Source: Geothrix limicola | GTDB taxonomy: Bacteria > Acidobacteriota > Holophagae > Holophagales > Holophagaceae | NCBI RefSeq assembly: GCF_030268085.1 | Contig: NZ_BSDE01000003.1 | Coordinates: forward strand, 558,001-622,000 | DNA: 64,000 bases | Reading direction: 5' to 3' | Shown here: positions 49,399-58,141 of the stretch, piece by piece | Layout of the letters: each line of letters opens with the position of its first letter | How positions within the stretch are numbered: position 1 is the first letter of the stretch | Position numbers and translations under genes: made by a program | Notes under the pieces: model-generated | What the model saw: the letters and a program-made list of their open reading frames with translations, nothing else | Told to the model about the DNA's origin: nothing | Databases searched by the model: none

Positions 49399-50940
49399 TC
49401 AGGAAAGGTCCTTCACCAGCTCCAGCCCCGCTTCGGTGCGGCTGAGGTACCAGGTCAGGGCCTGCCCATCCACCAGCTCGACCCTGGCGTCGGGGAAGCG
49501 CTTCTGCAGCTCGGTCTGGTGGCGGCGGTTGAAGCGGTAGGGCTCCGTGGGCAGCAGGATGATCTGCGGGTTCAACGCGGCGAGATCCTCATCCGTCAGC
49601 GTGGGATAGCGGTCGGGGCCGATGGGTGTGAGCCCGCCGTGCCGGATCAGGTCGCCCACGTAGGTATCGGGCCCGGCGCTCATCCAGGGCTCCTTCCAGA
49701 TCAGCGTGAGGGTGCGCGGGCCCTTGCGCTTGCGGCCCTTCAGCATGGCCTCCAGGGCCTTGGCACGGCCCTCGGCCTGGTCCGCCACGCCCAACCGTTC
49801 GCCCAGCTCGCGCAGGCCCGCGACGGCCTCTTTCACCGTGCGGATCTCCAGCGCCATCCAGGGGAGGCCCAGGGCCGTGAGGGCTTCGGCCACGGCCTTG
49901 GGGTTCTCGTCGCGTTCGAGGATCACGAGATCCGGCGCCAGGTCGCGGATGCGCGCCAGGTCGGGATCCTTGGTGCCGCCCACGGTGGGCACACTGTTGC
50001 GGATCCAGCGGGGTTCGATGCAGTAACGGGTGCGGCCCACCAGCCGGGCGCCGAGGCCCCACTGGACGAGCAGCTCTGTCACCGAAGGCACGAGGCTGAC
50101 GATGCGCTGCGGGGTTGACATGTTCCGGGGGGACCGCCTGCTCGCTTCACTCGCGAAGTCCCCCCGGGCCCCCTCTTCGCCCGCAGGCAAAGCCTGAGGG
50201 CGAAGGCTCGAGGCGCCCGTCAACACGAGCGCCTCTGGGCGGTCGGGGACCAGGAGCTTGACGCCCAGGTGCGGATCCTTGATCTTGCCGAGGCCCGTGG
50301 GGCAGAGGTCCAGCAGCGGACAGGCGGCGCAGTCCGGGCGGCGCGCGTCGCAGACGCGGCGGCCATGGAAGATGAGCTGGTGGTGCAGCTCGATCCAGTC
50401 CTCGCGGGGGAAGGCGCGGCAGAGGTCGGCTTCCACCTTCTCGGGCGTCGTGGCCTTCGAAAGGCCGAGCCGGCGCGCCACGCGGAAGATGTGGGTGTCC
50501 ACCGCCAGGGCCGGCACGCCGAAGGCGTTGGCCAGCACGACGTTGGCGGTCTTCTGGCCGACGCCCGGCAGCGCGCCCAATTCGTCGGGATCCGAAGGCA
50601 CCTGGCCGCCGTGGCGCGCCATCAGGGCCTGGCCGAGGCCGAGCAGGTTCTTGGCCTTGTTGCGGAAGAAGCCCGTGGACTTGATGAGGGCCTCGATCTC
50701 ATCCAGACGGCCCGCGGCGAGGCTCTTCGCATCGGGAAAGCGCGCGAAGAGCGCGGGCGTCGTGAGGTTCACGCGGGCGTCCGTGCACTGGGCGCTGAGG
50801 ATGGTGGCCACCACCAGCTGGAAGGGATCCATGTGGTCGAGGGCGCAGCGGGCATCGGGGTAGGCGGCCCGGAGCCGGGCCTGGAGCTCTCGGGATTTGG
50901 GTGTCGGCTTCGGCGCGGACTTGGGCTTGTCGGGGCTCAT
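49399..50940 (-). CDS. nth: Endonuclease III fused in frame to a BtuF-like metal/cobalamin receptor domain
   Basis: A 513-residue open frame. Residues 1-225 are a complete endonuclease III: helix-hairpin-helix LPGVGQKTANVVL with catalytic Lys130, catalytic Asp148 (AVDTHIFRV) and the 4Fe-4S ligands Cys197, 204, 207, 213. Residues 274-513 form a helical-backbone metal-receptor (BtuF/TroA-type) domain (VSLVPSVTELL, VGRTRYC, LAPDLVILERDENPKAV). The linker (about 240-273) is the translation of a REP-like repeat (50125-50173). Met274 at 50121 could start a separate protein, but has no good ribosome site. The BtuF part has no signal peptide. It may be one fused protein or two genes. Confidence 0.85.
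   Translation of the reverse strand: MSPDKPKSAPKPTPKSRELQARLRAAYPDARCALDHMDPFQLVVATILSAQCTDARVNLTTPALFARFPDAKSLAAGRLDEIEALIKSTGFFRNKAKNLLGLGQALMARHGGQVPSDPDELGALPGVGQKTANVVLANAFGVPALAVDTHIFRVARRLGLSKATTPEKVEADLCRAFPREDWIELHHQLIFHGRRVCDARRPDCAACPLLDLCPTGLGKIKDPHLGVKLLVPDRPEALVLTGASSLRPQALPAGEEGARGDFASEASRRSPRNMSTPQRIVSLVPSVTELLVQWGLGARLVGRTRYCIEPRWIRNSVPTVGGTKDPDLARIRDLAPDLVILERDENPKAVAEALTALGLPWMALEIRTVKEAVAGLRELGERLGVADQAEGRAKALEAMLKGRKRKGPRTLTLIWKEPWMSAGPDTYVGDLIRHGGLTPIGPDRYPTLTDEDLAALNPQIILLPTEPYRFNRRHQTELQKRFPDARVELVDGQALTWYLSRTEAGLELVKDLS
50125..50173. repeat. REP-like GGGGGCCCGGGGG element inside the nth fusion
   Basis: CCGGGGGGACCGC (50125-50137) and GTCCCCCCGGGCCCCC (50158-50173) form inverted arms around a variable middle. 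Read on the minus strand the arms match the order GGGGGCCCGGGGG...GCGGxxCCCCCGG seen at 19610-19647. It is translated in frame as the linker. Confidence 0.6.
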
Positions 50941-51011
50941 GGAATCAGCATAAAGGCGGCGTCTGCCGATGAGCAGCGCAGGATTCGATAGACTAGGGAT
51001 CGAGGTGCAAT

Positions 51012-51872
51012 ATGCCCACCACGTTGACTGGGAAGCTCGATTGCCAGGAAACCGCCCGTCACTACCTGGACCTGGTCCGTTCCAACATCAAGAAGCTGGG
51101 CTTCGCCCCGGGCCTGGGCGTCATCCTCGGCAGCGAGGATCCCGGCAGCGTCACCTACCAGCGCTGGCTCATGAAGGACTGCGAAGACGTGGGCATCAAC
51201 GCCGCGGACCTGCGCGTGGAAAACGGCATGCAGATGGTGAAGCTGGTGGCGCGCCTGAACCAGGACGAGAAGACCCACGGCGTCTTCATCTTCTATCCCC
51301 TGCGCTACGCCGAAATCAAGGACGACGAGGTCATGGACCTGGTGGACCCGGGCAAGGACATCGAGGGCCTGCACGCCATCAACATCGGCTTCCTGAACAA
51401 GTACCGGAAGCGCATGGACGACGGCACCCAGCACCGCTGCATGACGCCCTGCACCGCGCGGGCCATCGTGAAGACGCTCAAGCGCGGCTTCGGCGAGGGC
51501 TGGCTGGCGGGCAAGACCGTCGTCGTCATCAACGACAGCCTGCGCATCGGCCGCCCGCTCACGGCCATGGTGGCCAACCTCAAGGCCACGCCCATCCTCT
51601 GCCACGCGGCCACCAACAAGGATCACCTCGAGGGCTTCCTGCGCATGGCCGACGTCATCGTCAGCGCCGTGCCCGCGCCGGGCTACCAGATCAACACGAA
51701 CTGGATCAAGAACGGCGCCCTCTGCTTCGACCTCAGCGGCGATGGCAACTTCGACTACGAGGCCCTCGAGCGCCGCGGCATCCCCTACACCGACACCACC
51801 AAGAACAGCGTGGGCAAGGTCACCCGCGCCATGGCCCTGCTGAACCTCACCTACGCGGCGGGGTTGGGCTGA
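51012..51872 (+). CDS. FolD-family methylene-THF dehydrogenase, yeast Mtd1-like
   Basis: A 286-residue protein of the FolD fold. Aligned by eye with FolD, the active-site Lys (Y-x3-K) is replaced by Leu (TYQRWLMKDC), the Gln of VQLPLP by Phe (VFIFYPLR), and the Asp of KDVDG by Glu (GKDIEGLH). Remaining features are kept (MTPCTARAIVKTL, VVVINDSLRIGRPLTAMVAN, VGKVTRAMALL). The same substitutions of Lys and Gln and the KDVEGL motif occur in yeast Mtd1, a monofunctional NAD-dependent dehydrogenase without cyclohydrolase. The best prediction is NAD-linked oxidation of methylene-THF. Start at ATG 51012. Stands alone, followed by an inverted repeat. Confidence 0.85.
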   Translation: MPTTLTGKLDCQETARHYLDLVRSNIKKLGFAPGLGVILGSEDPGSVTYQRWLMKDCEDVGINAADLRVENGMQMVKLVARLNQDEKTHGVFIFYPLRYAEIKDDEVMDLVDPGKDIEGLHAINIGFLNKYRKRMDDGTQHRCMTPCTARAIVKTLKRGFGEGWLAGKTVVVINDSLRIGRPLTAMVANLKATPILCHAATNKDHLEGFLRMADVIVSAVPAPGYQINTNWIKNGALCFDLSGDGNFDYEALERRGIPYTDTTKNSVGKVTRAMALLNLTYAAGLG

Positions 51873-56080: not shown

Positions 56081-57286
56081 TCAGGACGGTCGCGGATCGT
56101 CCCATTGCGAGGCCACGAACAGCGGCTCCTCCACGCGGCTCGGGGCCTCCTCCTGCGGGTGGGCCGGCTCGGGTTCTGCGGTCTTGAAGACGGGCAGGTA
56201 CTGGGCGATGTAGGAGAAGGCGCAGAAGCCGATGGCAGTGATGCCGAGCATGATGAAGACTTCGATCAGCGACGGGAAATAGGTCTGGCTCGGGTAGTGC
56301 TCCAGGCCCGTGATGGCCGTGTTCATGCGGTTGAAGGCGAATCCCAGCACGACGAGCAGGCTCGCGACGTAGAGGCCGGTCTGGGAGGTGCGCACCTTTT
56401 CGAAGAGCAGCATGGCGAAGGGGATCAGGAAGCCGATCGAGAGCTCCGCATAGAAGGCCACGCTGTAATAGCTCAGCGTGATCATTTCGTGCAGGGTGCC
56501 CCGTGACAGGAGGTCCTGGATCCGCACGACGAGGTAGACGGCCAGGGCCAGCGCGACGATCTTGGCGAGCTTCGCTTGCAGATGCGTGGGCAGGAAGGGG
56601 CGACCATTCCTGGAGAAGAGGAGGGATTCCAGGGTGACCATCGAGAGACCCGAGGCGATGCACGAGATGAAGAAGAGGCCCGGCAGCAGCGGCGTGTACC
56701 AAAGCGGGTGCAACCGGTTCGGAACGATCAGGTAGAGCGATCCGAAGGAGGACTGGTGCAGGGTGGAGAGGAGCACGCCGAAGATCATGAAGGGCAGCGA
56801 CACCGCATGGATCCATTTGATCGGCGAGTGGATGTTGAACTTCTCCAAAACGATGGGCGCGAACTCCAGCGAGAGCACGGTCGTGTAGAGCATCAGGCAC
56901 CAGCTGATCTCGCACATGACGGAATGGGGGTTCCACATGACCAGCGGATGCCAGAAGTGGTCGGGCCGTCCGAGGTCGATGATGAGCACGAGGACCACCA
57001 GGAGGTATCCGATGAAGGCCGTGAGGATGGCCGGTCGCACGATGGGTTCGTACTCGTGGGCGTGGAAGAGGTGGACGGCGGCGACGATGGTGAAACCCGA
57101 GGCCGCGAGTCCGATGCCGAGGAAGTCGAAGCCGATCCAGAGGCCCCATGGGAAGGCGTCGCTGAGGTTGGTGGTGGCGCCGAGGCCGAGCGTGAACCGC
57201 GCCGTGGCCGCCAGGGCTCCGGCCAGGATGAGGATGGTGGCGATGGGGCGCCATCCGGTGACGTGGGGGAGTCTCGGGAGTCTCAT
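56081..57286 (-). CDS. NrfD/HybB-family quinone-linked membrane subunit
   Basis: A 401-residue protein with about 10 transmembrane helices. HybB-like features are PWGLWIGFDFLGIGLAASGF, a second-helix AAVHLFHAHEYEPIVRPA, DLGRPDHFWHP and HSVMCEISWCLMLY. NrfD/HybB/PsrC subunits exchange electrons between a periplasmic Fe-S protein and the menaquinone pool. The C-terminus is a cytoplasmic Pro-rich tail. The ATG overlaps the Fe-S gene stop (ATGA). No catalytic subunit is adjacent, so the partner enzyme must be elsewhere. Confidence 0.92.
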   Translation of the reverse strand: MRLPRLPHVTGWRPIATILILAGALAATARFTLGLGATTNLSDAFPWGLWIGFDFLGIGLAASGFTIVAAVHLFHAHEYEPIVRPAILTAFIGYLLVVLVLIIDLGRPDHFWHPLVMWNPHSVMCEISWCLMLYTTVLSLEFAPIVLEKFNIHSPIKWIHAVSLPFMIFGVLLSTLHQSSFGSLYLIVPNRLHPLWYTPLLPGLFFISCIASGLSMVTLESLLFSRNGRPFLPTHLQAKLAKIVALALAVYLVVRIQDLLSRGTLHEMITLSYYSVAFYAELSIGFLIPFAMLLFEKVRTSQTGLYVASLLVVLGFAFNRMNTAITGLEHYPSQTYFPSLIEVFIMLGITAIGFCAFSYIAQYLPVFKTAEPEPAHPQEEAPSRVEEPLFVASQWDDPRPS

Positions 57287-58065
57287 GCGTCATCCTTGGG
57301 CTGGATCGCGGCGCCTTTTTTCTTCGAGGCCTCGGACGCCTCGTAGGCCTGCACCTCGGTGCGCCGGTCCGTGATCCACCAGATGCCCGCCAGCAGCACG
57401 CCGCCGACGGAGAGCACGTTCGGCACCTTGGACAGGGCGCTCATCGTCAGAAGGGGCATGGGCGTTTTCCCCAGCCGCGAATCGAAGCCGAGCTGCTCGA
57501 AGGGAACGGGGCTGATGAACAGCATCGAGGTGCCGCCGACATCCTGTTCGCCGTAGATCTTCGGCACGTACTTGCCCGGCTCGGCGCCGATGCGGCGGGC
57601 TGCTTCGATCAACAACTGATCGCGGTCGCCGAAGGTCGTCGCCCCTGTGGGGCAGGCCTCGGAACAGGCCGTCGGCTGGCCCTTTGCGAGCCTGGCCGCG
57701 CAGAAGGTGCACTTGCGAATGGAAGGCTTGGTGCTGCTCCATTCGTACTTGGGCACATGGAAGGGGCAGGCCTGGAGACAGTACCGGCAGCCGATGCATT
57801 TCTCGCCGTCGTAGGAGACGGGTCCCAGCTCCGATTTGGTCAGCGCCCCCACGGGGCACACGGACACGCAGGTGGGCACGTCACAGTGCTGGCACATGCG
57901 GCGCACGTACAGATCGTTGTACTTGCTGAGCGCGGTGTAGGCCGTCAACGACAGGAATTTTTCTTCGTTCGGCGGTTGCCCGTTCTGCGCCTTGCAGCCG
58001 GCCTGGCAGGCGTTGCAGCCCACACAGAGCGAGACGTCGATCAGCATGGCTTTCTTCTTCGCCAT
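57283..58065 (-). CDS. Four-cluster 4Fe-4S protein (HybA-like) with C-terminal anchor
   Basis: A 260-residue ferredoxin-type subunit. Cys clusters are CVGCNACQAGC, CQHCDVPTCVSVC, CIGCRYCLQAC and CTFCAARLAKG with TACSEAC, so four 4Fe-4S centres. One helix near residue 225 (LSVGGVLLAGIWWIT) anchors it. It has no twin-Arg signal, unlike HybA, so the soluble part may be on the cytoplasmic side or it may be exported with a partner. ATG at 58065. It is the first gene of the operon, with sigma-54-like sequence 77 bases upstream. Confidence 0.92.
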   Translation of the reverse strand: MAKKKAMLIDVSLCVGCNACQAGCKAQNGQPPNEEKFLSLTAYTALSKYNDLYVRRMCQHCDVPTCVSVCPVGALTKSELGPVSYDGEKCIGCRYCLQACPFHVPKYEWSSTKPSIRKCTFCAARLAKGQPTACSEACPTGATTFGDRDQLLIEAARRIGAEPGKYVPKIYGEQDVGGTSMLFISPVPFEQLGFDSRLGKTPMPLLTMSALSKVPNVLSVGGVLLAGIWWITDRRTEVQAYEASEASKKKGAAIQPKDDA

Positions 58066-58141
58066 AGAAGGTTCCAATCAGAGATGGGCGTCAAAAATCC
58101 TGCAGACTTCAAGGGAACGAAGTCCGACGCAAAACCCATTG

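Follow-up and report, generated by a model that had tools for sequence, protein, structure and literature searches.

Does the FolD-family gene at positions 51012..51872 (+) of the Geothrix limicola DNA analysed here (the window, a stretch of 64,000 nucleotides) encode one more bifunctional FolD, or an enzyme of the kind known from yeast as Mtd1? An earlier note, made from the sequence without database searches, had predicted an NAD-dependent dehydrogenase devoid of cyclohydrolase activity. Our results show that the gene is real and conserved, and that the prediction of its function is well-founded: we put at about two in three the probability that it encodes a bacterial Mtd1-type NAD-dependent 5,10-methylene-tetrahydrofolate (methylene-THF) dehydrogenase without cyclohydrolase.

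A FolD-family gene below the FolD cut-offs

The coordinates, strand and frame given in the earlier note are correct. The predicted Mtd1-like gene starts at the ATG at 51012, ends with the stop codon at 51870-51872 and encodes a FolD-family protein of 286 aa (P0001). A GAGG read from the sequence (51002..51005, +), six bases 5' of the ATG, resembles a ribosome-binding site. Both FolD domains are recognized by Pfam (PF00763, 2.6e-19; PF02882, 3.5e-20), and the protein remains below the NCBIfam FolD cut-offs, its best score being 128.6 bits against a cut-off of 401, with none passed among the best 25 of 30 matching models. The ordinary FolD of the same genome passes one NCBIfam model among the 25 matches listed.

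Distribution and a second bacterial family

Whole-genome searches covered the phylum of the window, with 93 genomes of its class and a phylum sample of 396 genomes. The Mtd1-like gene was found in 63 of the 93 class genomes (E 1e-35 or better; some hits are pieces at contig ends), and all carriers belong to a single family, f1, which comprises Geothrix-type bacteria of soil and sediment and other Holophagaceae (63/77). It was found in none of the 16 genomes of families f2 and f3, nor in 14 f1 genomes, including those of genus g17 (both genomes) and of g25 (all four). For the 44 relatives that have named records, the titles read Geothrix, Holophagaceae or just Acidobacteria.

When the phylum sample was searched with a Holophagaceae profile, 36 genomes scored above 500 bits and 14 scored 125 bits and below. 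The best of these low-scoring matches, in genome G261, is a second Mtd1-like protein (P0002), 33% identical to the Holophagaceae form. Its best PDB match is yeast Mtd1 (76.7 bits; next chain, 54.8 bits), and six relatives, 67-85% identical, occur in the same family (f66), which brings this form to 7 carriers among the 257 genomes of a further acidobacterial order. G261 has another FolD-family gene too, whose PF00763 score is ordinary.

Mobile elements were searched as well. In viral contigs, one scan with the Holophagaceae profile yielded 86 pattern matches, none of which was confirmed as a relative. With P0001, a yeast Mtd1 stretch and P0002 as queries, plasmid searches returned 298, 274 and 91 records respectively, none reaching 60% identity, and the ten loci inspected among the 40, 20 and 30 matches listed all had the FolD residues. 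As a separate observation, of 365 confirmed FolD loci in viral contigs 80 were kept (L219-L298), and 76 of these, judging from their ranges, sit where a contig ends, as though many predicted proviruses were bordered by host folD.

Substitutions at FolD key positions

We compared 13 Holophagaceae copies with a background of 58 FolD proteins, made up of 53 FolD loci and five PDB stretches chosen because they were printed. The first 45 FolD frames had been picked by a pattern requiring Lys, Gln and Asp at the positions discussed below, which left those columns uninformative in the first trees; eight FolD loci missed by the pattern were then added as best BLAST frames, and the three residues were found in all 58.

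The substitutions described in the earlier note are indeed present. The catalytic Lys of FolD (human Lys56) is replaced by Leu53 (51168..51170, +, a place computed from the residue number), by Met in f66 and by Thr57 in yeast Mtd1 (PDB 1edz). The Gln (human Gln100) is replaced by Phe94 (51291..51293, +), also Phe in f66 and Tyr98 in yeast. The Asp (human Asp125), where KDVDG has become KDIEG, is replaced by Glu118 (51363..51365, +), as it is by Glu in every Mtd1-like row, including yeast Glu121. Because Leu53, Phe94 and Glu118 recur in 13 of 13 copies, and every one of the 58 FolD proteins has Lys, Gln and Asp there, the substitutions are not the product of chance. Two further columns hold Gly in all 58 FolD proteins: the Gly of GRS is Asn in every Mtd1-like row (Asn174, whose codon together with that of Asp175 spans 51531..51536, +) and the Gly of AVG is Pro (Pro221, 51672..51674, +). 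The Glu, Asn and Pro are thus identical in the Holophagaceae copies, yeast Mtd1 and 7/7 f66 rows. The f66 form resembles the window protein also in its Phe and in the loss of Lys and Arg, but differs in having Met for Leu53, Ser or Asn for Asp175 and an N-terminal extension.

Other motifs fared less uniformly. CTxxAIVK had been said to be kept, and it is (PCTARAIVK), whereas the dinucleotide loop, said to be kept too, is so only in part: GRSxxVG has become NDSLRIG, with Gly changed to Asn and Arg to Asp. The Y-x2-W-x2-K spacing proposed as a link to yeast has its Trp in both proteins, but this site varies within the family (W 5, L 5, F 2, Y 1 of 13) and is hence weak evidence. Compared with bifunctional bacterial FolD, then, the window protein shares both Pfam domains, the Tyr of YxxxK, KD, PCT, the His and the fold, and is changed at Lys, Gln, Asp and the GGVGPMT loop.

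Such changes raise the question of whether the protein is a methylene-THF dehydrogenase at all, or a regulatory or folate-binding pseudoenzyme, or an enzyme acting on another pterin. PMC3368264 counts seven key residues in the human enzyme, Tyr52, Lys56, Gln100, Leu101, Asp125, Gly273 and Gly276; the window protein retains two of them, the Tyr and, by our reading of the alignment, Gly276. As Lys56 and Gln100 are described there as supporting the dehydrogenase step too, loss of their equivalents could harm both activities. Most of the GGVGPMT loop is altered too, and the neighbours scanned in the window and at three other loci (L078, L079 and L159) include no C1 gene. Against a loss of catalysis, Tyr49 (the Tyr of YxxxK) is kept in 58/58 FolD proteins and in 13/13 Holophagaceae copies, which likewise all retain Lys115-Asp116, Cys147-Thr148, Gly180 and His198. 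Furthermore, dN/dS is 0.18-0.23 for three pairs of the Mtd1-like gene and 0.52-0.54 for two wider pairs (a sixth gave no value), and yeast Mtd1, which lacks the same Lys/Gln pair, is a dehydrogenase according to its PDB entry. For Lys56, PMC9173628 prefers a part in binding during the dehydrogenase step and does not settle whether the residue is catalytic in the cyclohydrolase step, a view that fits a loss of cyclohydrolase but is no proof of it. We therefore consider a pseudoenzyme, or an enzyme of another pterin, distinctly unlikely.

Relationship to yeast Mtd1

In all five trees containing both kinds of protein, a single well-supported branch divides the Mtd1-like rows, yeast Mtd1 included, from every FolD row. 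Support for this split was 100/99 with 15 Mtd1-like and 50 FolD rows, 99/98 with a fuller FolD set (12 against 41; 20 of 73 rows dropped for speed) and 100/99 once f66 was filled in (18 against 39; 22 of 79 rows dropped for speed). The window protein is therefore outside ordinary FolD, together with yeast Mtd1 and the second bacterial family. Leaving out yeast or G261 in turn (23 of 65 rows dropped for speed) kept the remaining Mtd1-like rows together, with SH-aLRT of 100 and 98.

Letters rare in FolD point the same way. With the full FolD set, yeast and Holophagaceae are identical at 11 of 53 such columns (shuffle mean 2.64; 1 of 5000 shuffles as high), a count that had been higher with the earlier, pattern-picked set (15/60 columns, 0/5000). 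G261 and Holophagaceae agree at 21 of 65 (mean 3.80; 0/5000), and yeast and G261 at 10 of 58 (mean 3.28; 6/5000). In direct comparison, P0001 scores 107 bits against the yeast Mtd1 stretch and 82 bits against the FolD of its own genome; phmmer with P0001 as query ranked a Campylobacter FolD (92.9 bits) over yeast Mtd1 (85.4 bits, fifth).

Could the likeness to yeast be convergence, the window gene being a duplicate of its lineage's own FolD that lost Lys and Gln independently, perhaps still as an NAD-linked dehydrogenase? The key sites do differ (Leu53 and Phe94 against Thr57 and Tyr98), identity to yeast Mtd1 (31-33%) is about that to the genome's own FolD (30-35%), and the branches involved are long. 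However, an AU test rejected a clade joining the Holophagaceae copy to Holophagaceae FolD (p 0.000116) and with it, on these sequences, a derivation of the gene from the FolD of its host lineage; a second bacterial family has the Glu, Asn and Pro as well, and the Mtd1-like rows hold together when either yeast or G261 is removed. Convergence is accordingly unlikely in our judgement. The exact place of yeast is a different matter. Yeast Mtd1, the single fungal sequence in the trees, sits between the bacterial copies and FolD on a long branch, which raised a long-branch warning, and takes no supported place when alone among FolD rows, so that attraction between long branches is possible. Grouping yeast with two trypanosomatid FolD proteins gave p 0.0207 in the AU test, and grouping Holophagaceae with yeast to the exclusion of G261 was not rejected (p 0.206).

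Taken feature by feature, the window protein and yeast Mtd1 (PDB 1edz and 1ee9) have in common the FolD fold, the loss of Lys and Gln, KD(I/V)EGL, a changed GGVGPMT loop ending in GKVT, the Asn and Pro described above and a joint position outside FolD. They differ at the two key sites, in the Asp that the window protein has for yeast Arg185, and in a yeast insert of about 19 residues that the window protein lacks.

An alignment of 15 close relatives gave no usable structure model (pLDDT 46.5); once 11 FolD rows taken from viral contigs had joined it, a second model reached pLDDT 90.3 and adopts a FolD fold. Yeast 1edz superposes on it over 273 residues (rmsd 2.1, Z 31.7), twelfth by Z and tied with bifunctional enzymes scoring up to 32.5, and it is absent among the 50 Foldseek matches listed. 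The modelled fold thus agrees with Mtd1 but does not decide between Mtd1 and FolD.

Coexistence with an ordinary FolD

The earlier note called for a separate cyclohydrolase. Two FolD-family genes are present in the window's genome (97% complete): the Mtd1-like one and a 310-aa ordinary FolD (L001) whose YxxxK, VQLPLP and KDVDG are intact and which would supply this activity; a 620-aa frame with an FTCD_C match is also present. A third PF02882 match (L003, C1:97029) was discarded, as it overlaps a frame that by eye resembles a short-chain dehydrogenase of the FabG kind.

By our reading of the matches, FolD accompanies the Mtd1-like gene in 57 of the 63 carriers (55 whole, 2 in pieces), and on this ground we gave up the hypothesis of a replacement of FolD by this gene. 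No FolD was seen in the other six (G004, G011, G022, G027, G081 and G083). Two of these, G022 and G004 (loci L151 and L148), are drafts 95-96% complete, in which the missing FolD reflects either gaps or a real replacement. All three genomes of genus g16 (G060-G062; L079, L080 and L081), only 0.9-1.2 Mb in size, carry both FolD and the Mtd1-like gene, and GcvP too, with no match to formyl-THF synthetase or FTCD_C. This would suit the streamlined freshwater genus UBA12189, tentatively Acidiparvus, which PMC11561045 describes as the sole genus of the family with genomes of this kind.

The acetogenic setting suggested in the earlier note did not hold. The window's genome gave no formyl-THF synthetase match and no PurU above cut-off, while the glycine cleavage protein GcvP is present. 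Conversely, both g17 genomes have folD directly beside formyl-THF synthetase, yet lack the Mtd1-like gene. Among one-contig carriers the synthetase is absent in G020 and G065 and present in G033 and G070, hence gene and synthetase are not tied.

Cofactor and proposed reaction

According to PMC3368264, the 2'-phosphate of NADP is bound by an Arg/His/Ser set (human Arg173, His196 and Ser197). The corresponding residues are Asp175, His198 and a residue other than Ser at 199 in 13/13 Holophagaceae copies. With two of the three contacts lost, NAD appears the better guess on sequence grounds. Since yeast Mtd1 keeps its Arg (Arg185), lost in the bacterial copy, this argument does not rest on a shared feature. 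A dehydrogenase without cyclohydrolase that uses NADP+, or both cofactors, would be in keeping with the retained His198 and with human MTHFD2, which uses both according to PMC5718140. The latter enzyme and MTHFD2L share with the window protein the fold (Z 32) and can use NAD, as predicted for the window protein, but are bifunctional, and MTHFD2 retains Lys88 (PMC9173628) and cyclohydrolase. The loss of Arg and Ser in every copy speaks against NADP+, as an acidic Asp175 should repel the 2'-phosphate, and we find NADP+ or dual use rather unlikely.

We thus favour an NAD-dependent Mtd1-type enzyme working beside FolD. With its FolD fold, its substrate-stacking Tyr49 and the Cys-Thr near the cofactor retained, the protein would take methylene-THF formed from serine or glycine and pass a hydride to NAD+, giving methenyl-THF and NADH. 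Lacking the Lys/Gln pair, it would not hydrolyse methenyl-THF; the cell's ordinary FolD would have to do so, and would itself oxidise methylene-THF in parallel and then hydrolyse the product. FolD usually uses NADP+. Use of NAD+ by the Mtd1-like enzyme would favour the direction of oxidation, because the NAD+/NADH ratio is normally high in cells. Yeast Mtd1 is described as NAD-dependent and monofunctional in the titles of published studies.

If this holds, bacteria with both enzymes could oxidise methylene-THF on NAD and NADP in one compartment, much as the yeast cytosol does, where the reaction runs on both. The cofactor of this step bears on the flow of one-carbon units to formyl-THF, and a second enzyme in most of the family, even in genomes of 0.9-1.2 Mb, would show that bacteria split the step between two cofactors. 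Fungal Mtd1 would also gain a bacterial kin group. With somewhat less than even confidence, we propose that Mtd1 is an old separate lineage rather than a fungal offshoot of FolD or MTHFD2, which two or more acidobacterial families have alongside FolD and which fungi hold through descent or bacterial transfer. The bacterial branch of this lineage appears to be new: we found no description of it in the open-licence literature. In conserved-domain databases the NAD domain of Mtd1 is represented by a family whose members may include bacterial proteins. A monofunctional bacterial enzyme was already known, the NADP+ enzyme of Peptostreptococcus productus mentioned in PMC6443876.

Genomic neighbourhood

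The gene stands alone, without C1 neighbours, and a C1 operon was dropped from consideration. Its divergent neighbour (49399..50940, -), not part of the function, encodes an endonuclease III-like domain fused to a periplasmic-binding-protein domain and adjoins the Mtd1-like gene in L078 and L079 as well. DsbD and a gene of the DAHP-synthase family are also common to the window and L079 neighbourhoods, and this sharing of neighbours speaks for descent within Holophagaceae.

Two observations on nearby genes stand apart from this. The fusion itself is odd, a DNA-repair enzyme (HhH-GPD) joined in one frame to a periplasmic-binding domain (Peripla_BP_2) at three loci, 49399-50940 (-) of the window, L078:5898-7361 and L079:3535-4935. 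Further along, window positions 56081-58077 (-) encode an NrfD-like membrane subunit and an iron-sulfur protein, which resemble an HmcC/HmcB or hydrogenase-2 pair at scores below the family cut-offs.
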